Counted from the first letter of the stretch, positions 39,054 to 51,637 are shown. The stretch: 53,382 nucleotides of DNA from Flavobacteriales bacterium (GCA_002722245.1 PBLA01000016.1:1-53382), one strand, 5' to 3'. Numbers and translations: made by a program. The notes: generated by a model not told the origin, from the letters alone.

Positions 39054-39098
39054 TCTATATTTAAATGACAAAAATTGACTCTAAACATTATTAGCAAA

Positions 39099-40337
39099 AT
39101 GGTTGAAAAAAAACTCCCCGTAACTGTTCTTAGTGGTTTTTTAGGCGCAGGAAAAACCACATTATTAAATCATATTCTACACAATAAAGAGGGATTAAAA
39201 GTTGCCGTTATTGTAAATGACATGAGTGAGGTTAATATTGATGCTCAATTAATTGAAAATAACGACGTGCTCTCACGAACAGAAGAGAAACTTGTTGAAA
39301 TGAGCAATGGCTGCATTTGTTGTACACTTCGAGAGGATTTAATGGTAGAAGTTGAACGGTTAGCAAAAGAAAATCGATTTGATTACTTAGTGATAGAAAG
39401 CACAGGAATATCGGAACCAATACCTGTTGCCCAAACCTTTACATTTCAAGACGAAGAAAACGGTATTGACCTTAGTAAATTTAGCTACATCGATACAATG
39501 GTTACTGTTGTGGACGCCTTTAACTTTTTTAACGATTTTGGATCAAGTGAGTTGTTGTTCGATCGTGAATTAACTGATATCGATGGGGATGATCGATCAA
39601 TTGTAAATCTTCTCACCGATCAAATTGAGTTTGCTGATGTGATCATTTTAAATAAAGCTGATTTAGTGGATGAACAAACACTCGAATTATTGGAGGCTAT
39701 GGTTAAAAAACTTAATCCAAGAGCAAAAATCATTCAAACCTCACATAGTAATGTCCCTTTACATTCTATAATAAACACCGGATTGTTCGATTATGAAGAA
39801 GCAGAACAAAGCGCAGGTTGGTTAGAGGAACTAAACAAACCTGAACATACGCCAGAAACAGAGGAATACGGTATAAGTTCCTTTGTTTTCAAAAGTAATA
39901 AACCGTTTCATGCAGAGCGTTTTTGGAACTTTATTCAAAACGAATTCCCCCATAACATTATACGAAGTAAAGGCTTATTCTGGTTAGACTCTCGTCCAAA
40001 TCAAGCCTTAACCTGGGGACAAGCAGGAGGCTCTTTAAAAGCAGATAGTGCTGGCGTTTGGTGGGCAAGCATGCCACTAAGTGTAAGGGTTCAATTTCAA
40101 AACTTTGTTTATGCTCAAGATGAAATTGAAGAAAATTGGGACACAACATTTGGTGATCGAAAAAATGAACTCGTTTTTATTGGACAAGACCTAGACAAGA
40201 ATCTTGTTACACAACAATTGTGCTCATGCTTAAGCACACCCTCAGAATTAAAAGAAATGGATTGGGAGGACGGAGTTGAAGATAGCTGGCCTGTCCAAAG
40301 AGCTATCCCCCCTCATAAACAAACTTTTGAAAATTAA
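39099..40337 (+). CDS. COG0523 (CobW/G3E) GTPase, putative zinc metallochaperone
   Basis: 412 residues from the ATG at 39099; an in-frame TTG at 39075 is less likely. Walker A is GFLGAGKTT (13-21), followed by the metal-binding GCICC motif (Cys72, Cys74, Cys75). [11 protein letters not shown] switch and the NKADLV guanine-specificity motif follow, and a CobW_C domain fills the C-terminal third. The family uses GTP hydrolysis to insert metals; members next to folE and under Zur control act in zinc allocation during scarcity. Length resembles the YeiR/ZigA subgroup. It is followed 4 bases later by folE. Confidence 0.9.
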
Positions 40338-40341
40338 ATTC

Positions 40342-41004
40342 ATGGAAATTCCTATTGAAAAAAAACACATTGATGATGTTGGAGATAATCACGTCATGAC
40401 AAGTATTCAAACTCCAATGACTCCTGACGCTTTTGACAAAACAGATGAAGAAAAAATACAAATTATCCAGGAGTACTTTAAAGGCATTATGGAAACATTA
40501 GGTCTTGATTTAACGGATGATAGTTTAAAAGGAACACCGTATCGATTTGCTAAAATGTATGTTAAAGAATTATTTAGTGGTCTTGATCCTAAAAACAAAC
40601 CCTCTATTTCTGTTTTTGACAACAAGTATCAATACAGCAAAATGCTGGTAGAGAAAAACATCTCTTTTGAATCTGCCTGTGAACATCATTTCCTACCAAT
40701 GCGAGGAAAAGTCAATGTAGGATACATTTCCAATGGAAAAGTCATTGGACTTTCTAAAATAAACCGGATTGTAGAATACTATGGTAAACGGCCTCAAGTA
40801 CAGGAAAGAATGACTATTCAAATACTCAATGAATTACAACAGGCGCTAAACACCAAAAGTGTTATTGTTGTTGTTGATGCCGAACACCTTTGTGTGTCTT
40901 CCAGAGGAATAAAAGATCCCACAAGCTCCACCGTAACCATGGAATATGGAGGAGAATTTTTAAAGGAACACGAAAGGGATACCTTTATTAAACTATGTAA
41001 TTAA
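40342..41004 (+). CDS. folE: GTP cyclohydrolase I (zinc-dependent type IA)
   Basis: 220 residues from the ATG at 40342, 4 bases after the COG0523 stop; the open frame further upstream lies inside the previous gene. It converts GTP to 7,8-dihydroneopterin triphosphate, the first step to folate and pterins. Zinc ligands are intact: Cys113 and His116 in CEHHFLP, and Cys184 in EHLCVSSRG. The signature GKVIGLSKINRIVEYYGKRPQVQER is complete. The cofactor-free type IB enzyme usually appears in zinc-limitation loci; finding the zinc enzyme here suggests it is a client of the adjacent GTPase. Confidence 0.95.
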   Translation: MEIPIEKKHIDDVGDNHVMTSIQTPMTPDAFDKTDEEKIQIIQEYFKGIMETLGLDLTDDSLKGTPYRFAKMYVKELFSGLDPKNKPSISVFDNKYQYSKMLVEKNISFESACEHHFLPMRGKVNVGYISNGKVIGLSKINRIVEYYGKRPQVQERMTIQILNELQQALNTKSVIVVVDAEHLCVSSRGIKDPTSSTVTMEYGGEFLKEHERDTFIKLCN

Positions 41005-41014
41005 AATTTAAATC

Positions 41015-41476
41015 ATGATAACAAAAGAACAAGTATTAGACGCCCAAAAACAATGGGGTGAAGGAGTTGTAAAAATTGGATCTTTAAAAGAAACCCGATC
41101 AGCTTGTGAGGCTTTTGCAAGTCAATTTTTAGATGAGCGGTATACGTTTGAAAACGGACCTGTTTTATTTAAACCTACTAAATGTGCTGAAGAGCAATTT
41201 AGACCGTCAAAAGTAGAAGCTTTATCTTATTTCATTGCTGGAGATGACAGAAAATGTAAAGAAGATCAAGGTTTTGCTATAAACCCTTGGACCAATGTTC
41301 GATTTGAAAACAGTGAATTCATTTTAGAGGAAAATAGAGCGATTGCCATGGGTAATTACTTCTTTACCGATTTAAATGACAACGTAGCAAAAGTAGAATA
41401 TACATTTGGGTATAAATTGATTAATGGTGAATTGAAAATTGATTTACACCATTCTTCTTTCCCTTATAACCCATAA
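41015..41476 (+). CDS. NTF2/SnoaL-like small protein of the zinc cluster
   Basis: 153 residues. The pattern (AQKQWGEGVVKIG, FENGPVLFKPTKCAEEQFR, YFIAGDDRK, MGNYFFTDLND, KVEYTFGYKL, DLHHSSFPY) fits a cone-shaped NTF2-like fold with a pocket lined by aromatic and His residues. Homologues are sometimes labelled phosphoribosyl-AMP cyclohydrolase, but the HisI cysteine motifs are absent, so I do not adopt that name. It starts 10 bases after folE and ends the operon at a strong terminator. Possible pterin-related enzyme or binding protein, by context. Confidence 0.75.
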   Translation: MITKEQVLDAQKQWGEGVVKIGSLKETRSACEAFASQFLDERYTFENGPVLFKPTKCAEEQFRPSKVEALSYFIAGDDRKCKEDQGFAINPWTNVRFENSEFILEENRAIAMGNYFFTDLNDNVAKVEYTFGYKLINGELKIDLHHSSFPYNP

Positions 41477-41495
41477 TTCATTTAATGATAAACAC

Positions 41496-41536
41496 AAAGG
41501 TGACTGTAAACTCATGGAAAACAGTCACCTTTTATT
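41496..41536 (+). terminator. Rho-independent terminator
   Basis: AAAGGTGACTGT (41496-41507) pairs perfectly over 12 bp with ACAGTCACCTTT (41521-41532), followed by a short T-rich stretch. A second small hairpin (ATTGGCT 41534-41540 with AGCCAAT 41547-41553) follows at once. Confidence 0.88.
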
Positions 41537-41612
41537 GGCTCTAATAAGCCAATTCACGCAATAAATTCACCGCTCATTTTTAATCAAAACTTAACAATTA
41601 AAAGCATTATTT

Positions 41613-42515
41613 ATGGAACCCATTATCGCCATAGTAGGATTCTTAGGCGCAGGAAAGACGACTCTTCTGCGTCATCTATCAGAAAGCTTCATTAATGTAG
41701 GTTGGTCACCTTATGTGATTCTAAATGATTATGAAAATGCGATGTTAGACGCTCAACAGCTATCCGAAAAAATCGATTCAAGACTTATTAAAGCACTGAA
41801 TGGGAGTTGCATCTGTTGCAGCGGAATTGCGGAATTGCGAAACTTTGTAAATAACACCCCCGAACGAACAAACGGCATAACATTAATAGAGGCTAACGGT
41901 ACATCAGATGCCTGTTCATTAATGGGGTTTTTAGGTGTTGGTTTGGAGGATCGATTTATGCCACCCGTACAAATATCCGTAGTGGACGTAAAAAACTGGC
42001 AAAAAAGAGGAGAACACAATGAATTAGAAGCCAATCAGATTCAAGTCTCATCGGTAATTGTTATGACTCATCTGGACGATGTTTCTGAAGTACGAAGAAA
42101 TCATGTGAAAAAAGCACTCAAAGAATTAAATCCCCATGCACAAATTCTAACCTTAGATGAATTAAATATTTTTTTACTGCCCAAGCTAGTTCCCTCTAAA
42201 AACAACCCTGAAAAGCTGGATCACTTAAAAGCACACTGGGCTTCATGCTCAATTGATCTTCCAACATTACCCCATGAAAACGACATTCATGCCATTTGTA
42301 AGGCATTACCAAAAAGTATATTAAGAATTAAAGGGTGCACAAGAATAGGTGATAATGAGTCATTTACCTTTTTTGAACAAACTCCTGACGGACAAGTTCA
42401 TATTCGCCCATATAAAGGTGTGCCTTCAACAGGATCAAAATTATTAACCGTTGGACCCGGAAGCGAGCCTTCTATCCTGAAGAAAATTTTAACCAAGCAC
42501 CTTCAATTCCATTAG
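41613..42515 (+). CDS. Second COG0523 (CobW-like) GTPase
   Basis: 300 residues. Walker A is GFLGAGKTT (9-17), the metal motif is SCICC (Cys66, Cys68, Cys69), and a short CobW_C domain ends at about residue 295. Where the first paralogue has ESTGISEP this one has EANGTSDA. The usual NKxD guanine motif is replaced by MTHLDD (about 149-154), so nucleotide specificity may differ. It lies after the operon terminator and has its own terminator, so it is transcribed independently. No palindrome like that at 38254 is visible upstream. Client protein unknown. Confidence 0.88.
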   Translation: MEPIIAIVGFLGAGKTTLLRHLSESFINVGWSPYVILNDYENAMLDAQQLSEKIDSRLIKALNGSCICCSGIAELRNFVNNTPERTNGITLIEANGTSDACSLMGFLGVGLEDRFMPPVQISVVDVKNWQKRGEHNELEANQIQVSSVIVMTHLDDVSEVRRNHVKKALKELNPHAQILTLDELNIFLLPKLVPSKNNPEKLDHLKAHWASCSIDLPTLPHENDIHAICKALPKSILRIKGCTRIGDNESFTFFEQTPDGQVHIRPYKGVPSTGSKLLTVGPGSEPSILKKILTKHLQFH

Positions 42516-43689: not shown

Positions 43690-45207
43690 TCACCACCTAT
43701 TCTTTTTTAAATTCAAAATAAGTTTAGGATAATCTATTTTAGAATAATGTCTTGGATCTCGAGGAATATTCCTTACATAAATAACTGAGTCATGTTTAAT
43801 TAATTCATTTGGAATCTCCTTTTTCGAGTGGGCATCACCTTCAATTACTAAAATTATTTGGCCATCAATCTCTAATAATGTTCCACATGAAAAACCTAAA
43901 TAGGTTCTAATCATATATTCGTACACAAATGGAGACAAATAACTGTTATGATCCTTTATCAGTTGACTACATCTTCCAAATAAATATAATTTTTGACCTT
44001 CCATTCTTCCAGAATCACCTGTTCTATGCCATACTTTATTTTCAGTGAGAATTTTATTCCTTCTAAACGCTTTGTCATTATTGATATATGATTTCAGCAC
44101 ATGATTTCCAGCAACAACAATTTCACCAACGTCTCCTTTTTCCAATTCTATTTCTGTAAGATTATCATCTTTCGTTTCAATGATATCATCAACTATTCTA
44201 ATAATTTTTAATTCTATTTCAGAGTATAAATTACCAACACACAAACCTTTTTTTAAAATCTCCTCTTCACAACTCACTAATTCAGTCCCATTTATTAAAC
44301 TTATTGGTTCAGCTTCGGTAGAGCCATAAGCAATATTAATTGAAGAATTTAAAAAAGCATTCTTATACCTTTTTACTTGATTTGGAAAAACAGGTGCACC
44401 CCCAGTAAAAATTTTTTCAATCCTTGGTAAAGTAATTTTTGTACTTATTAAATACCTAGAAATATGATCGAAGAAAAATGGTGATGCCGTAATCCGATTC
44501 ACCTTATTTTCAAAAATCTGTTTCACTATTCTTTTAGACTTCATTTCAGTTAGTTTTCTGGAGTTAAAACTGACTATTAATGAAGTTGCTCCAACGGCTA
44601 AATTGCAAAGTAAAACAATAGGTAATAAAGGCATATCAATATCTGATGATTTTGGATCAATTTCCTTTGATAAGGCTTTAAACTGTTCTCTTAGGAATCC
44701 ATGCGTCCTATTGGCAGCCTTGGGAATTCCAGTGCTTCCAGTTGTAAAAGTGATTAAGGCCGTATCATTTTTCAAATTCATATGCTCCGGTGATTTCAAA
44801 ACATCTTGTTCTGTCATTAAATGTGTGCCAATCTTCACAGGTATTTTTCTTAATTCTTTTGAAAAAAAAGAAAGCACTCTGATTTTACGATCAGATACAA
44901 AAGCCTTACATTTCGCAATTTTACAACATATTTCCATCCTTGATTTACTGACCCATTCATCCAGAAATACAGCTATTGCTCCAACGTAAAATACAGCTAA
45001 AACAATTCTATATAAATGAATAGACATAGGAATAAAAATAAGGACTCGATCACCCTTGTTAACGCCTTTCTCTTTTAACATCATAGCAGTTTGCCTCACC
45101 TGCTTTTCTAGCGTTTGATAATCAATTTTATGTTCTTTTTCAATAATGGCTACATTACTAGGATAAGATTGGGAAGCATTAATAAAAAGATCTATAATAT
45201 TATTCAT
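43690..45207 (-). CDS. Acyl-adenylating ligase (AMP-binding, acyl-CoA synthetase / OleC-like)
   Basis: 505 residues. The ANL superfamily P-loop is FTTGSTGIPKAANRTHG, followed by AYGSTEAEPIS (A5 motif) and HRTGDSGRMEGQKLYLFGR (the A7/A8 hinge region). The C-terminal lysine region is shortened and unusual (RHYSKIDYPKLIL). It activates a carboxylic acid as acyl-AMP; the second substrate is unknown. The overall pattern is closer to stand-alone ligases such as OleC-type than to NRPS modules. No carrier protein is encoded nearby. Last gene of the seven-gene operon, 2 bases after the GNAT-like gene. Confidence 0.82.
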   Translation of the reverse strand: MNNIIDLFINASQSYPSNVAIIEKEHKIDYQTLEKQVRQTAMMLKEKGVNKGDRVLIFIPMSIHLYRIVLAVFYVGAIAVFLDEWVSKSRMEICCKIAKCKAFVSDRKIRVLSFFSKELRKIPVKIGTHLMTEQDVLKSPEHMNLKNDTALITFTTGSTGIPKAANRTHGFLREQFKALSKEIDPKSSDIDMPLLPIVLLCNLAVGATSLIVSFNSRKLTEMKSKRIVKQIFENKVNRITASPFFFDHISRYLISTKITLPRIEKIFTGGAPVFPNQVKRYKNAFLNSSINIAYGSTEAEPISLINGTELVSCEEEILKKGLCVGNLYSEIELKIIRIVDDIIETKDDNLTEIELEKGDVGEIVVAGNHVLKSYINNDKAFRRNKILTENKVWHRTGDSGRMEGQKLYLFGRCSQLIKDHNSYLSPFVYEYMIRTYLGFSCGTLLEIDGQIILVIEGDAHSKKEIPNELIKHDSVIYVRNIPRDPRHYSKIDYPKLILNLKKNRW

Positions 45208-45209
45208 TT

Positions 45210-46220
45210 TTAAATGTCTATTTTAAAAAGGCTATAATTTTTATATTCCTTCCCCATACTGTTTTTAGATAGATGATTGGAAAAGTTATCTTTAAGCATA
45301 AGAGCGTGTATAATGTCTTGATATCCCAGTTCACGCGCCTTTTTTATTGCCATAAAGCCCAACATTTTACCAATTCCTTCAAATTTTTTTCCATTTTTTC
45401 TTGCCAGCGTTTTTATCACTAATCTTTTCTTAGTTTTTGAATAGAGATCAGGAAAACAAAAAACAACACCAACAAGTTCATCATTGTATTCAGCCAGAAG
45501 AACTAATCTTGAATCTATAATCTTTTGTAGTGGGATAAATTTGTTTAAAAATCGTTCCTTAGAAATTGGAGTAAACAAAAAATTATTTGAAAATGCTTCA
45601 TTACAAAATCTATGTACTTTTAATAACTCACTCTGATAAGTTTCTAATTCTATAGATCGAAAAGTAATCCCTTTATTTAAAAATCGCTGTTTACTCTCCT
45701 CCACAGCTACGCCTTTAAATTTAGTTGTTGTATCAATAGAAGAACAAAATTCTGCTAATTTTTTAAATCCAAAAGCTTTAAAATGATTTGGATAAGCGTC
45801 CGAATTATATGCTTCTCCAAAAAACATATCCTTACTATTAAATGTAGGATCTATAAATCTATAATCATTCCATGTAGAACCACTCATGGGACCAATAATT
45901 GAGGAAATACCTTCTTCCTTACAAACACGAATTGACTCATTTAGAATAAGTTTCCAATATCTTTCATTGTCAACACACTCATAAGCACCCAATGTTGCAA
46001 TTAAATTTAAATTAGGGTTGAAATAAATTCCAACTCTCCCTTTTGGAATTCCATTTTCAAAAAGAACTACGCATACTTTTAAAAATTCCTCTTCTAACAC
46101 GTGTAAACGATAGTATTCTAATTCTTTCTTACTATATATTTCGTAAGGAACATGATCAAAATACTTGAAAGAATCCTCACCAGGCATTGTATGTATAATT
46201 TTCAATGAATTTTTAGACAT
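45210..46220 (-). CDS. GNAT-like N-acyltransferase (YghO-like)
   Basis: 336 residues. The middle segment GPMSGSTWNDYRFID resembles YghO-type proteins. The C-terminal half (about 160-330) is a GNAT-like fold with strands such as LVLLAEYNDELVGVVFCFPD and a KFEGIGKMLGFMAIKKARELG helix in the acetyl/acyl-CoA-binding position. Substrate unknown; related proteins are poorly characterised. It stands 19 bases after the small membrane protein gene and 2 bases before the ligase, so an amide- or ester-forming step using the ligase product is plausible but unproven. Confidence 0.72.
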   Translation of the reverse strand: MSKNSLKIIHTMPGEDSFKYFDHVPYEIYSKKELEYYRLHVLEEEFLKVCVVLFENGIPKGRVGIYFNPNLNLIATLGAYECVDNERYWKLILNESIRVCKEEGISSIIGPMSGSTWNDYRFIDPTFNSKDMFFGEAYNSDAYPNHFKAFGFKKLAEFCSSIDTTTKFKGVAVEESKQRFLNKGITFRSIELETYQSELLKVHRFCNEAFSNNFLFTPISKERFLNKFIPLQKIIDSRLVLLAEYNDELVGVVFCFPDLYSKTKKRLVIKTLARKNGKKFEGIGKMLGFMAIKKARELGYQDIIHALMLKDNFSNHLSKNSMGKEYKNYSLFKIDI

Positions 46221-46239
46221 ATGCTACATAATAAGAACA

Positions 46240-46461
46240 TTAAATAACAAGCGATTGAATAGGAATAGTCAATCCCTCATATCCTTCAAAAGGAGTCGAT
46301 AAAGCAATAGTTTGGGCGATGAAAAATACCGTCAGGATTATTCGCATTTGATCCATTCTAAATCCACTCAAACCTAGATTTTTGATTCTGAATGGAAAGA
46401 GAATAAATAAAAGTGTCCCAACGATCATTTTACATAATCCTATTTTTATCCAACTATTCAC
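46240..46461 (-). CDS. Small membrane protein (73 aa)
   Basis: 73 residues with two predicted transmembrane helices (about 8-24 and 39-58) and a short polar tail. Its start overlaps the end of the DUF3419 gene by 8 bases, which supports translation as part of the operon. No family recognised. It could tether soluble enzymes of the pathway to the membrane. Confidence 0.6.
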   Translation of the reverse strand: MNSWIKIGLCKMIVGTLLFILFPFRIKNLGLSGFRMDQMRIILTVFFIAQTIALSTPFEGYEGLTIPIQSLVI

Positions 46462-47548
46462 TAAACTTTTTTACAATATTAAAATCACGATAAAAGAACC
46501 CCTTGTCAAGCTTTCCCAACGTCAAAGATTGATCCGTATCTAAAACAAAATGTTTTGGTAACATTTCGTTTAATTTTCGGGGAACCATTAAATTCCAATA
46601 TGCTATTCGAGATTCTATTTTAGTGATCTTTGAAACTTCCTCTGCCACAAGCATGAATGTGTCTTTATCCATATATTCAAAAATATTCGAAAGATTTAAC
46701 GAGTCAAAAAAACCATATTTTCTCCCAGCATCCTGCACATAATTTTTTTCTAATACTAATTGAGATAAATTAGATTTAATAGTATCGTAATTCTCCAAAC
46801 GAACATAATGCGGCAATCCATTTTCAAACGAGCCTCTTAAAATAAAGCTCAAGAAATAATTTTTCTGACAGCTTACTGAGCTCAAATGATGTTGAGCTTT
46901 TTCATAAATAAATTTACCTACGGGTATTTTAACCTCTTTTAAAAAAGCAGGATCTCTTCCAAACCTTCCCATTATTGTTTTACTAAAAAAAAGTTTAAAC
47001 AATAATTTCCATCGAAAATTATTCCATTGCTCTGAGTAGAATTTCAATTGTTCTGATGCAATTTTATTTTCAAATAATTCATTGATAATTTTCTCCTTAT
47101 GGATATACGGAAGAATTTTCTTTTGAAAAAATTTAAAATACCTTTCGAACTTCCCACAGAAAACAATCCCATATTCAATATCTTCTTTCTTTGAATCCCA
47201 AAAACATTTCGTTTCAGGATCTAATTTCGATCTTATTCCCAAGTAAGTATGATATCTTTTGATCCCTTCTGTAAAACCCGAAAAAGACAGATATTCCTCT
47301 CGATTCAAAACTGAAATAGCAGCAATTTTTAATCGCATTAAATTTAATTGTGCAACATTTAAATCTGCCGCTACAATTAATTCAGGATGAGAACTGAGTA
47401 AAGAGAGCGTATTATCTCCTGCAGATGCAATAGATAATATTTTTGATCCTTCTTCTAAACAAAGTCCTTTCAAAAGAATGTCTGCATCCTCCCAACAATT
47501 AGCATATCTAACATAATCAGAAGAAACATTTTGGAGATGATTACTCAT
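46454..47548 (-). CDS. DUF3419 / BtaA-like SAM-dependent aminocarboxypropyl transferase
   Basis: 364 residues. The N-terminus YVRYANCWEDADILLKGL and the SAM site ILSIASAGDNTLSLLSS followed by VAADLNVAQLNLMRLKIAAI are the hallmarks of DUF3419, the family of BtaA. BtaA moves the 3-amino-3-carboxypropyl group of SAM onto diacylglycerol to make the homoserine head of betaine lipids. The methyltransferase BtaB, which completes DGTS, is not encoded here, so either the product stays unmethylated or the acceptor differs. The gene overlaps both neighbours by 8 bases. Confidence 0.82.
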   Translation of the reverse strand: MSNHLQNVSSDYVRYANCWEDADILLKGLCLEEGSKILSIASAGDNTLSLLSSHPELIVAADLNVAQLNLMRLKIAAISVLNREEYLSFSGFTEGIKRYHTYLGIRSKLDPETKCFWDSKKEDIEYGIVFCGKFERYFKFFQKKILPYIHKEKIINELFENKIASEQLKFYSEQWNNFRWKLLFKLFFSKTIMGRFGRDPAFLKEVKIPVGKFIYEKAQHHLSSVSCQKNYFLSFILRGSFENGLPHYVRLENYDTIKSNLSQLVLEKNYVQDAGRKYGFFDSLNLSNIFEYMDKDTFMLVAEEVSKITKIESRIAYWNLMVPRKLNEMLPKHFVLDTDQSLTLGKLDKGFFYRDFNIVKKFSE

Positions 47549-50087
47549 TTGACAATACTATTAATTCACCTGTAGACCCGTCCATTTCTACTTCATCACC
47601 TGTTTTTAAAACCTCGAGCAACCCTGTTATTCCTACAATGCAAGGTATTCCCAATTCTCTTGAAACGATAGCAGAATGACTCAACATACTACCTCTTTCA
47701 ACAAGAATAGCAGAAGCAGTTGGAAAAAGAGTTACCCAACCAGGGTCAGTACTTGAAGTAACTAAAATGTCCCCATTTAATGAAGTACATTCATTAGGAT
47801 GGTTTACAACTCGCACTTTACCTCGAATCCTACCAGGGCAACATCCAACACCTTTAATATCACCACTCAACTTCTCTCCTCTTGGTCCTGCAAAAAAGTT
47901 ATTATTTACATACACCATGCCATTCGTTGAAATTCGCTCAGAAGGTGAAGGCATATTTTCATACTTTAGAAATTCCTCTTTTCTAATTTTGATCAATGCT
48001 TTAAGACTTACCGAAACTGCAGTTCCTTTTATAAAGTCAAAAATTTCTTCCTGAGTTAAATAAAACACATCTCTCTCATGATTAATTAATCCTTTTTTAT
48101 AAAGTTTCCTACCGATCGATGCAAACATCTTACGAACCATTCCAAAAGCTCTTGTTCGCTCATATCTTAAATTCTCTCTCCCGCTTACCATTGATCTGGT
48201 TACACGAAGAACATAATTAAAAATCCCTTTTTTAAATAAATTCCACCTAAATGCTGTTCGAACAATCTCATTTGCATCCTCTCTCAATTTTTTCTCTATT
48301 CCAGATTCTCTATGAGAAGAGACTATCCCTTGTTGAACATAAGATTTTATAATTTCCACAAAAACATCAGGCTGCTGATTGTAAGAGAGAGTTTCTAATT
48401 TCAATTCACCTACACAGCGATCACCAAATAGAGATAAATAACTTTGGATCTTTTCAGAGACATTTGGATACTTTTTTTGTTGAATAGCTTCCCAAATCAC
48501 CTCACTACTATTCATAATGAAGAAATCTTTTGCCTCATTACTCTTTAATATTTCCGAGGATATTTCTAAAATTCGTTGAACAGGCTCAGTTGAAATAATA
48601 TCATTACTTCCACATAAAAGATCATTATGAATATGCTTATTCTCGCTTTTTAGCCAAGTTTTGGTTATTTTTTCTAGAATACCAAAATATATCATTGCAA
48701 AAAAATCGTTTACCAATGGAGCTTTCCATTTAGTTAACAACACATTTTCAAACTCTTTGTAATGATCCATTAATTCTTCTGGAGTTAAGACCTCAAAATC
48801 CATACTTTGATAACGTTGAATTGTAGAATCAACCTCCCTATGAAATTTTGTTCTTTGGCTCGATAACGTGATTAAATTATAACCTATCTTAAAAATGGAT
48901 TGTCCCAATCGTAACCAAGCCATTCCTTTAGAAAAAGATTTTTGTTTTTTTAATTCAAATCGCTCTTTAACTCCCATCATTTTCTCCATGAAAGAAGCAT
49001 TTAAAGAATAGCCTGGTAATAGCGAAAGAGCTTTGTACCAACTTAATAAATTATAATAAACTCTTCCTTGAATTAAACCCAGCATATTTGAAAAAACATC
49101 CTTATTCGCATTAACTTCTTTTAAATGAACACCCATTAAAAGTGCAAATTGTCGATAAACTGCCTCATACATTTTAATAATAAAAGAGAAAGTAAGTGGT
49201 GTTGTAACTCCAGGGTATGACTCAATAATATTACTGTTATCCCAAATAATAAACTGATGGTTCTCCTCTTTTGTGTCAAGTGTCGTTATCGGACGTGTTT
49301 GAAGAAGAAATAATTTTTCTTTAAAATATGCAAATTCAACATCTTGAGGAAGTTTAAACTCCCTTCCTAAAAGATCCAAAACATAAGCAACTTCCTTCAA
49401 TTGATCATCTTGCATAACCGGTTTCGAAACCATCTCCTCTGAGATTTTAATCTTGGAAATCCCATCATAATCAGAGTTTACTGCAAAAGCATATTCTTTT
49501 TCAACTATCGTTTTATCAATTCCATCTTTTTTAATTTTATAATTATCCGCATTGAGATCACCAGAAACCAAACCTTCACCAAGTCCATAAACAGCAGAAA
49601 TAATTTTTGAATCATTATCTCCCGTTATTGGATCTGCTCCAAAAGCCACTCCTGATATCTCAGCATCAACCATTAACTGAATAATCACAGCAATTTCTTG
49701 ATGTTCTGAAAGCCCTTTATTTTTTCGATATTGCAGAACTCGATCGCTATTCGCCGAACGTCTAACCTCTTGAATTGCATCCATAAGATTATGGACATCC
49801 ACATTCAAAAGAGTTTCGAATTGTCCAGCAAACGACGCTTTTATTCCGTCCTCATCAATTGCAGAAGATCTAACAGCAAAACGAGCCCCTTTATTTTGGA
49901 CAATTAATTGATGGTTTTCCAGAGCATATTTAATCTTCTCAATTGGAGTTGATTGAAGTACATGGCTAGGAATAACAAACCATGAAGGTACATTCATCTC
50001 CAAATCCTCTAGTTTTAAAAGATTTCTGGCCTTACCACCAATATCAACATTAGTCTTATACTTTATTTGCCCTGACTCTATAAACAT
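47541..50087 (-). CDS. PEP-synthase-like phosphotransferase (PPDK_N plus PEP-utilizer mobile domain)
   Basis: 848 residues from the ATG at 50087; a TTG just before it is also in frame. The ATP-grasp PPDK_N domain (about 8-275) has VDIGGKARNLLKL, RSSAIDEDG and GVAFGADPITGD. A long helical middle region (about 280-735) is family-specific. The swivelling phosphohistidine domain (about 745-845) ends with GSMLSHSAIVSRELGIPC, His804 being the phospho-acceptor. This layout matches rifampin phosphotransferase or PEP synthase; the PEP/pyruvate TIM barrel is missing, so ATP-dependent phosphorylation of a bound small molecule, as in rifampin phosphotransferase, is more likely than PEP synthesis. Starts within the UbiA stop (TGATG). 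Confidence 0.85.
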   Translation of the reverse strand: MFIESGQIKYKTNVDIGGKARNLLKLEDLEMNVPSWFVIPSHVLQSTPIEKIKYALENHQLIVQNKGARFAVRSSAIDEDGIKASFAGQFETLLNVDVHNLMDAIQEVRRSANSDRVLQYRKNKGLSEHQEIAVIIQLMVDAEISGVAFGADPITGDNDSKIISAVYGLGEGLVSGDLNADNYKIKKDGIDKTIVEKEYAFAVNSDYDGISKIKISEEMVSKPVMQDDQLKEVAYVLDLLGREFKLPQDVEFAYFKEKLFLLQTRPITTLDTKEENHQFIIWDNSNIIESYPGVTTPLTFSFIIKMYEAVYRQFALLMGVHLKEVNANKDVFSNMLGLIQGRVYYNLLSWYKALSLLPGYSLNASFMEKMMGVKERFELKKQKSFSKGMAWLRLGQSIFKIGYNLITLSSQRTKFHREVDSTIQRYQSMDFEVLTPEELMDHYKEFENVLLTKWKAPLVNDFFAMIYFGILEKITKTWLKSENKHIHNDLLCGSNDIISTEPVQRILEISSEILKSNEAKDFFIMNSSEVIWEAIQQKKYPNVSEKIQSYLSLFGDRCVGELKLETLSYNQQPDVFVEIIKSYVQQGIVSSHRESGIEKKLREDANEIVRTAFRWNLFKKGIFNYVLRVTRSMVSGRENLRYERTRAFGMVRKMFASIGRKLYKKGLINHERDVFYLTQEEIFDFIKGTAVSVSLKALIKIRKEEFLKYENMPSPSERISTNGMVYVNNNFFAGPRGEKLSGDIKGVGCCPGRIRGKVRVVNHPNECTSLNGDILVTSSTDPGWVTLFPTASAILVERGSMLSHSAIVSRELGIPCIVGITGLLEVLKTGDEVEMDGSTGELIVLSNE

Positions 50088-51019
50088 CAAAAAAACAATT
50101 TACTTACCATAGGTATTCCTCCAAGACCTAAATACATAAAAACAGTCCAAAGTGACGAGGCATGTTCAATGAATTTGGCATTTTTATTACTTGGTTTGAT
50201 CAAAAATGAAAATGCAGGAAGGATGCATATTAGAAATACCGTTCCAAAAAAATAAAAGGCTATTAAACCATAATTAGCATAAACGCTTGTAATAAGACTT
50301 AGAATTAATGTTGATGTAATTACAAGAATCCAAATCCAAACAGCCTTTTTTGTTCCGAAATATTTCGTGTATGATAAAACACCTTCTTCTTCCGATTCTG
50401 GAGGTTTAATTTTTCTCCCAAATTCTAATACAATACCATTCATAAAAGAAACAGCAAAGAAAAACAAAAGGCCAACAGGAGCTTCAAATCCATTATAAAA
50501 CCAATCTAATCCACTGGCATATACATCAATTAATGGAATGATAATCATATGTGAAACAACATAAATCAATTGATGATTCTTAAGCCATTTTGGCACAAAA
50601 AATTCTGCTCGCATTAAAAGAAGATAGCCCATTACAATAGCATATAAAAGAATCATCTCTTTCTGAAAAAAAAGGATCAAAAAAAGCTGAATTAAAGCCA
50701 CTAATATACCCACCCATCGTAACTCTTTAAGAGAAATTAATCCTCGAGGAACAGGAAGGTATTTTCGATATTTAGCATCCTCTTCTTTATCCTTAAATTC
50801 ATCAAATATTCGGACTAAAAAAAATAAAGTGAACGTAGTTATTATTCCAATTAAATAATGTTTCCAGTCAATAAAACCATTCTCCCCTCTACATATTCTT
50901 GAATAAGAAATTGCAGAAAATGTAAAAACTCCAATCAGAATAATATATCCAACAAAAGGAAATCGCTCCTTTTGATAAATATAGAAGCGGACGAAAAAAG
51001 AATGCGTATTCTGTTCCAT
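50087..51019 (-). CDS. UbiA-family prenyltransferase
   Basis: 310 residues with about eight transmembrane helices. The first Asp-rich motif is RIFDEFKDKEEDAKYR (Asp73, Asp77, Asp81), followed by VPRGLIS, fitting the DxxxDxxxD Mg-prenyl-diphosphate site of UbiA enzymes. The second region, EFGRKIKPPESEEEGVLSY, replaces the usual second Asp cluster with acidic and basic residues, a form seen in a less studied subgroup. It is expected to attach an isoprenoid to an unknown acceptor in the inner membrane. It starts 3 bases after the SRPBCC gene and overlaps the phosphotransferase gene by 1 base. Confidence 0.82.
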   Translation of the reverse strand: MEQNTHSFFVRFYIYQKERFPFVGYIILIGVFTFSAISYSRICRGENGFIDWKHYLIGIITTFTLFFLVRIFDEFKDKEEDAKYRKYLPVPRGLISLKELRWVGILVALIQLFLILFFQKEMILLYAIVMGYLLLMRAEFFVPKWLKNHQLIYVVSHMIIIPLIDVYASGLDWFYNGFEAPVGLLFFFAVSFMNGIVLEFGRKIKPPESEEEGVLSYTKYFGTKKAVWIWILVITSTLILSLITSVYANYGLIAFYFFGTVFLICILPAFSFLIKPSNKNAKFIEHASSLWTVFMYLGLGGIPMVSKLFF

Positions 51020-51022
51020 TTT

Positions 51023-51637
51023 TTATTGCTTTATAAAAAGATGTACCCGTTCATAAGTATCTCCTCTCTCTATTAAATTTTTAATGTTCTCTAGGTTTTT
51101 TTCAAATATTTCCTCAGCCTTATAAGCAGCAAAATACATTTTCAATTCATCAATGAAACTAATTCTTTTTGTTGGGTCAAAAAATATCGTGAAAGTTAAC
51201 TTACATCCTCCATCATAATTCTCATATAGCTGATCCGTCATTAAATTATCAGCACTCAAATCAAAATGAACCATATTAAAAATGGATAACCGTCTTCTCG
51301 AATTAACTTCGTTTACGAGTATCTCCTCATCCCATCTCAACCCATTTTCATCTTCCTGCTGAAAACACCTTCTAACAGAGCCAACAGATCCATCACTTAT
51401 CTCATTGGAATTCAACGTACTGATGTGGTGAACAAAAACAGACCATTTTCGTGCATTATCAGAATTCCCTAGAATTTTATACGTAATTTCTTTACTTGCA
51501 TTTACTTCTATTGAACAAGCCAAATAACGATTTTTGTAGAGCTTCCCCTTCCCATAAGGACTAAAAAGAATCATTATTCCAATAGCAAAAACAAAGATTA
51601 ATATAAAGGATACAACGATTTTGAAAATACGCTTCAT
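51023..51637 (-). CDS. Membrane-anchored SRPBCC (START-like) protein
   Basis: 204 residues. One N-terminal TM helix (about 5-28) and then a START/polyketide-cyclase-like fold: ACSIEVNASKEITYKILGNSDNARKWSVFVHHI, VGSVRRCFQQEDENGLRWDEEI, CKLTFTIFFDP, and a long C-terminal helix that would close a lipid-sized pocket. Such domains bind hydrophobic ligands; here a prenyl or lipid intermediate is a natural guess. First gene of the seven-gene operon. Confidence 0.78.
   Translation of the reverse strand: MKRIFKIVVSFILIFVFAIGIMILFSPYGKGKLYKNRYLACSIEVNASKEITYKILGNSDNARKWSVFVHHISTLNSNEISDGSVGSVRRCFQQEDENGLRWDEEILVNEVNSRRRLSIFNMVHFDLSADNLMTDQLYENYDGGCKLTFTIFFDPTKRISFIDELKMYFAAYKAEEIFEKNLENIKNLIERGDTYERVHLFIKQ

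Follow-up and report, generated by a model that had tools for sequence, protein, structure and literature searches.

The 53,382-nucleotide stretch of DNA analysed here (PBLA01000016.1:1-53382 of GCA_002722245.1, from a Flavobacteriales bacterium; hereafter the window) contains a run of seven open reading frames (ORFs) on the minus strand, spanning 43690-51637 and flanked at both ends by genes on the opposite strand. The spacings between them, from the SRPBCC gene to the AMP ligase gene, are 3, -4, -8, -8, 19, and 2 bases, and all members of the co-directional run with overlaps or short gaps described in an earlier note on this DNA were found. The matches to UbiA, PPDK_N plus PEP-utilizers, DUF3419, and AMP-binding exceed the curated Pfam cut-offs, and two further proteins fall just below theirs (SRPBCC as Polyketide_cyc2, 27.2 vs 27.4 bits; GNAT, 18.3 vs 20.7 bits).

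Table 1. Features of the operon, with positions counted from the first base of the window; HMGR, HMG-CoA reductase; aa, amino acids.
Feature	Position	Strand	Remarks
SRPBCC (Polyketide_cyc2-like) protein	51023-51637	minus	N-terminal hydrophobic stretch; first operon gene here; accessory, in 8/40 relatives
SRPBCC/UbiA junction	51020-51022	minus	3 bases left; ~430-aa HMGR homologue at this place in L007 (same genus) and L009
UbiA-superfamily membrane enzyme	50087-51019	minus	Pfam; motif 1 intact, motif 2 replaced
PEP-synthase-like phosphohistidine enzyme (PPDK_N + PEP-utilizers)	47541-50090	minus	Pfam; catalytic His805 conserved
DUF3419 protein, distant BtaA relative	46454-47548	minus	Pfam
73-aa membrane ORF, apparent KIN remnant	46240-46461	minus	Aligns to C-terminal third of KIN
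Tandem-GNAT acyltransferase	45210-46220	minus	Pfam just under cut-off; structure model
AMP-forming acyl ligase (ANL family)	43690-45207	minus	Pfam AMP-binding; nearest NCBIfam model PRK09274, under its cut-off

One genome per species was scanned with a profile built from five DUF3419 sequences, and 80 loci were retrieved from Bacteroidota, Gammaproteobacteria, Nitrospirota, Geobacteraceae, Spirochaetes, and Lentisphaerae. The prevailing order, seen in Bacteroidota with overlapping genes, is HMGR-UbiA-PEPS-DUF3419-KIN-GNAT-(SRPBCC)-AMPL, where HMGR is a homologue of HMG-CoA reductase, PEPS the PEP-synthase-like enzyme, KIN a membrane protein, and AMPL the AMP ligase. Related or rearranged versions occur in Alpha- and Gammaproteobacteria, Nitrospirota, Geobacteraceae, and Lentisphaerae, and a Roseinatronobacter plasmid carries the UbiA, PEP-synthase-like, DUF3419, membrane protein, GNAT-like, and ligase genes in identical order. 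Among 40 non-redundant loci with enough contig, picked by DUF3419 similarity, UbiA, PEPS, and AMPL are each present in 39, KIN and GNAT each in 38, HMGR in 35, and SRPBCC in 8; the operon genes share one strand in all 40. Since this choice depended on DUF3419, co-occurrence was checked independently in 395 Bacteroidota genomes. The operon UbiA was found in 10 of them and the operon-clade DUF3419 in 12; all 10 UbiA carriers have both genes, a few kb apart (hypergeometric probability ~3e-18, kinship ignored). The operon is therefore not a chance grouping but real, and it is patchily distributed, with the operon-clade DUF3419 in two of the five sampled genomes of the window's genus. These counts bear out co-conservation in relatives, the absence of which the earlier note had named as a refutation. 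A definite product is to be expected from an operon that keeps its order across several phyla and uses interchangeable parts for two of its steps. No published pathway with this gene set was found in open-access full texts (subscription papers lay mostly outside the search), as the earlier note had also stated.

Judged by sequence comparison, the operon in the window is a trimmed copy of this recurring gene set. In a genome of the same genus (G003, locus L007), SRPBCC and UbiA are separated by an HMG-CoA reductase homologue of approximately 430 aa, and DUF3419 and GNAT by a KIN of 217 aa. In the window the reductase homologue is gone and the KIN slot holds the 73-aa ORF. A KIN search of the window's whole genome returned this stub alone (E 0.02, 28% over KIN positions 138-213). 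Aligned to a KIN profile, it matches positions 146-214 with 15.6 bits, above all 2000 shuffles, and the invariant Asp and Asn of KIN are changed in it. What had been listed as a separate two-helix membrane protein is thus better read as the remnant of a longer gene, and the seven genes taken for a complete set correspond to a full operon of eight in the relatives, two of which have been lost here.

KIN in the relatives is a membrane protein of 217-228 aa that appears to be CdsA/SEC59/VTE5-like (CTP-enzyme-like). It matches no Pfam or NCBIfam family in a meaningful way, and Foldseek returned no match at E 0.001 or better. Structure comparison gave Z 9.5 (root-mean-square deviation 3.7, 156 aligned) and 9.0 for CDP-diacylglycerol synthase, a range that is ambiguous for helical bundles, and Z 7.3 for the CarS-type archaeal lipid enzyme 5guf, again in a range ambiguous for helical proteins. 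Its RKxxH and DPxAA motifs recall those of the SEC59/VTE5 kinases. These motifs and the weak fold match hint at a CTP-enzyme-like protein. A DAGK/YegS lipid kinase fills the slot in L142 and an APH-type kinase fills it in L010, so it reads as phosphorylation; this step appears better assigned here than to the PEP-synthase-like enzyme. Phytol and dolichol salvage (VTE5/SEC59 kinase plus UbiA-type transferase) resembles the operon in bringing together a UbiA-family enzyme and a CTP-enzyme-like membrane protein, the putative identity of KIN. Unlike that system, the operon has no VTE6 that we could see, and it adds the HMGR homologue, the PEP-synthase-like enzyme, DUF3419, GNAT, and the ligase.

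The HMGR slot is occupied in two distant operons (L142 and L143) by an NAD_binding_4 protein. NAD_binding_4 is a family of fatty-acyl and thioester reductases, and the replacement points to acyl-thioester reduction, which is what the reductase slot looks like. The HMGR and KIN pair reads as making an alcohol and then phosphorylating it.

The window's genome has a single class-I HMGR homologue, which lies on contig C27 and is joined to an APH kinase domain. Such a fusion fits a reductase and a kinase that would act in two consecutive steps. It belongs to a second lipid-type cluster, cluster B (L092 1697-10225), and is followed by genes encoding CarS-like and PEP-synthase-like proteins, a UbiA-like membrane protein, a methyltransferase, a PlsC-like acyltransferase, and a desaturase. 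The UbiA-like protein has 246 aa and is labelled from motif reading and slot, Pfam giving no UbiA match. Cluster B has identical content in G005 (L120), and related clusters occur in G103 and G536. The HMGR-APH fusion is rare, being found in 1 of 395 genomes across the phylum and in 4 of 149 nearer genomes. L077, the one other operon found without HMGR and KIN and with both slots unfilled, lies in a genome that likewise carries the fusion; there it is divided between two contigs and followed by CarS-like and CDP-alcohol-phosphotransferase-like genes. All three KIN-less loci are HMGR-less too (chance ~0.002). Because both genomes lacking the pair with nothing in its place carry the fusion, and KIN loss is nested in HMGR loss, we propose that the missing steps come from cluster B. 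The window operon would then most likely borrow its reductase and kinase steps from the cluster-B fusion.

The UbiA protein (Pfam 52.7 vs 34.2 bits) has an intact first Asp motif, D73xxxD77xxxD81. Its second motif is E199-F-G-R202-K203 (ExxRK) in place of the canonical DxxxD, with E, R, and K invariant, suggesting that the donor may be unusual. The prenylated core proposed in the earlier note is accordingly putative. A polyprenyl synthase adjoins the L142 operon. The nearest solved structures are digeranylgeranylglyceryl phosphate (DGGGP) synthase and chlorophyll synthase. The archaeal ether-lipid route offers a likeness, through DGGGP synthase and through the CarS-like and CDP-alcohol phosphotransferase genes in related clusters; it differs from the operon, where the second Asp motif is missing, a head group of SAM (S-adenosylmethionine) type is proposed, and a tandem GNAT is present. 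UbiA is almost always accompanied by the PEP-synthase-like enzyme. The latter has the architecture of rifampin phosphotransferase and PigC, and shares with the rifampin phosphotransferase/PigC/PEP synthase family an ATP-grasp N-domain, a central domain, and a phosphohistidine domain with a conserved His. It differs from them in showing no pyruvate-binding C-domain among its Pfam matches and in standing always beside lipid genes, and it lies under every NCBIfam equivalog cut-off (best 733.9 vs 883 bits; PigC 307 vs 1300). The operon thus includes a UbiA branch in which motif 2 is altered, together with a PEP-synthase-like enzyme outside the named equivalogs. On two Streptomyces plasmids (L130 7024-12401 and L131 4598-13838), PEP-synthase-like relatives adjoin genes for an AfsA-like hotdog protein and an isoprenylcysteine-methyltransferase-like protein, perhaps in butyrolactone-type signal clusters.

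The DUF3419 match is full-length, covering residues 13-360, with 195.9 bits against a cut-off of 28.2. The operon DUF3419 clade stands apart from BtaA proteins encoded beside a BtaB-type methyltransferase (support 99/92), in a tree that is weak since it has long branches and includes a mis-called BtaA row (L128, wrong reading frame). That row is left out of the residue comparison, in which the equivalents of E20, D21, G44, and D62 are common to operon DUF3419 and BtaA-type proteins. A BtaB-type N-methyltransferase was found neither in the window operon nor among the genes conserved at the relatives' loci, and sequence search found no solved DUF3419 structure. Our best guess is that DUF3419 is a SAM-dependent aminocarboxypropyl transferase acting on a lipid. 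BtaA/BtaB synthesis of the betaine lipid diacylglyceryltrimethylhomoserine (DGTS) is the closest parallel, in that a DUF3419-family protein is expected to move the aminocarboxypropyl group of SAM onto a lipid, as proposed here; in the operon, a tandem GNAT with an AMP ligase or a phosphatidylserine decarboxylase (PSD) takes the place of BtaB, and a reductase and a kinase are attached. A DUF3419 gene on a Deefgea plasmid (L129 6917-8403) is directly followed by an adenosylmethionine decarboxylase gene (speD), a hint that some DUF3419 proteins may transfer aminopropyl groups.

The GNAT-like protein was confirmed by modelling as a tandem of two GNAT domains (mean predicted local distance difference test score 92.8; Foldseek matches at 1e-10 or better to tandem GNATs that include VipF and MshD). 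The AMP ligase scores 168 bits against an NCBIfam OleC cut-off of 900, and OleC-type beta-lactone synthesis was rejected. The operons of L142 and L143 lack the AMP ligase and include a PSD homologue, a combination that agrees with an intermediate bearing an amino-acid head group. L144 (5440-11870) has a minimal DAGK-DUF3419-GNAT trio, followed by genes reading as a pyridoxal-phosphate decarboxylase-like protein and an ATP-binding cassette (ABC) exporter; it may be a simpler form of the same chemistry.

From this gene content and its displacement pattern we infer the reactions, their order, and the product. We favour, with middling confidence, a membrane-lipid biosynthesis operon whose product would be a phosphorylated lipid with a SAM-derived, N-acylated aminocarboxypropyl group. 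An acyl-thioester reductase (the HMGR homologue, elsewhere the NAD_binding_4 type) would make a lipid alcohol (step 1), and a lipid kinase (KIN, elsewhere the APH or DAGK type) would phosphorylate it (step 2). UbiA and the PEP-synthase-like enzyme would build or activate the hydrophobic part (step 3). DUF3419 would add the aminocarboxypropyl group, after which the AMP ligase would activate an acid and the tandem GNAT transfer it to the new amine (step 5). In the window, steps 1 and 2 would have been lost and taken over by the HMGR-APH fusion on C27. That the product is a lipid appears well supported by gene context: CDP-alcohol phosphotransferase, CdsA, CarS-like, DAGK, PSD, PlsC-like acyltransferase, and polyprenyl synthase genes lie near the relatives' operons or clusters. 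CdsA and a CDP-alcohol phosphotransferase are additional members of some operons, and similar transferase genes and CarS-like genes occur in cluster-B loci. Cultured carriers (Dyadobacter and Sphingobacterium) make the product findable.

Several points weigh against this scheme. The DUF3419 protein of the window is 22-24% identical to BtaA-type proteins; with its own clade and no BtaB partner, it works like BtaA at most by analogy. The homoserine-type head from SAM that had been proposed earlier survives as a best guess for the transferred group. The scheme leaves the role of the PEP-synthase-like enzyme unexplained. Two genomes make the case for supply from cluster B, and the idea itself came from one of them, the window's. 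KIN is retained at three loci without HMGR, and two of those genomes show no HMGR elsewhere. The loss of two core genes could also be decay and not rewiring.

The product could instead be a prenylated small molecule, either a meroterpenoid or a secreted signal. Relatives of UbiA and the PEP-synthase-like enzyme do occur in secondary metabolism (PigC/RedH, rifampin phosphotransferase), the Streptomyces loci described above place such relatives beside AfsA-like and isoprenylcysteine-methyltransferase-like genes, and the patchy spread (10 of 395 genomes) and the plasmid copy suit an accessory product. However, the operons examined contain no enzyme forming an aromatic acceptor, no polyketide synthase, and no nonribosomal peptide synthetase, and the linked genes are lipid enzymes (DAGK, PSD, CdsA, CarS, CDP-alcohol phosphotransferase, PlsC). 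We regard a small molecule as unlikely; the meroterpenoid raised in the earlier note has nothing pointing to it. Two published gene systems were also compared and rejected. The published UbiA-297 operon proved to be the ebo cluster, whose EboC model gives only 15.8 bits here. The UbiA and HMG-CoA-reductase neighbourhoods described for lipocone systems are different gene sets (PMC12419801).

A lipid product could also arise by another order of chemistry, in which the lipid alcohol is phosphorylated and DUF3419 alkylates the phosphate, not a hydroxyl, with the aminocarboxypropyl group. This would give a phospho-homoserine lipid without a CDP-alcohol step, followed by N-acylation by GNAT or by PSD decarboxylation to a phospho-propanolamine lipid. 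The DAGK-DUF3419-GNAT trio of L144 and the PSD homologues of L142 and L143 fit this alternative, which we think improbable. If true, phosphate alkylation would mean that zwitterionic phospholipid heads can be made by a new route.

It is also doubtful that the window copy is now without function and in decay, with the loss of the reductase and KIN as the first stage. The missing reductase and the KIN stub, both genes being present in the same-genus G003, would agree with decay, as would the sparse occurrence within the genus. The six remaining genes, however, are intact, and of the positions that 95% of relatives conserve they retain almost every one (one GNAT position deviates). Their dN/dS values against same-genus L007 are 0.08-0.13, approximate because dS is near saturation. 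They look functional and under purifying selection, and the separate lineage L077 has lost the same two genes while retaining the rest.

It is very unlikely that the HMGR homologue acts as a normal HMG-CoA reductase and boosts mevalonate-derived isoprenoids for UbiA, even though it matches Pfam HMG-CoA_red with 383 bits and keeps the catalytic Glu, Lys, and Asp in 54 of 54 sequences, because the HMG-binding residues are replaced and HMG-CoA synthase is absent from all 18 carrier genomes. The position of human Ser684 is Glu in all 54 homologues, no Lys stands at the Lys735 position in those aligned, and the His866 position varies (His, Gln, Arg, Ser, or Asp); we take Ser684 and Lys735, from published structures of the human enzyme, to hold the HMG carboxylate. 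The homologue also falls under the NCBIfam NADPH-HMGR equivalog cut-off (331.8 vs 441.8 bits), and DXR of the methylerythritol phosphate (MEP) pathway is present in 16 of the 18 carriers. A class-I branch with such a changed pocket would be mis-named by annotation. Two Portibacter genomes (G151 with L031 and G159 with L086) yielded neither HMG-CoA synthase nor DXR. HMGR homologues of a third type, with Glu for Ser684 and Asp for His866, occur in L123 (8194-9882), L124 (9346-10887), and L125 (8900-10666); in L123 and L124 they adjoin genes reading as beta-oxidation and FadD-type genes.

Elsewhere in the window, genes at 39075-42515 read as two CobW/COG0523 GTPases, the second of them examined with Pfam, around a FolE-like cyclohydrolase. 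This arrangement recalls zinc-starvation loci.

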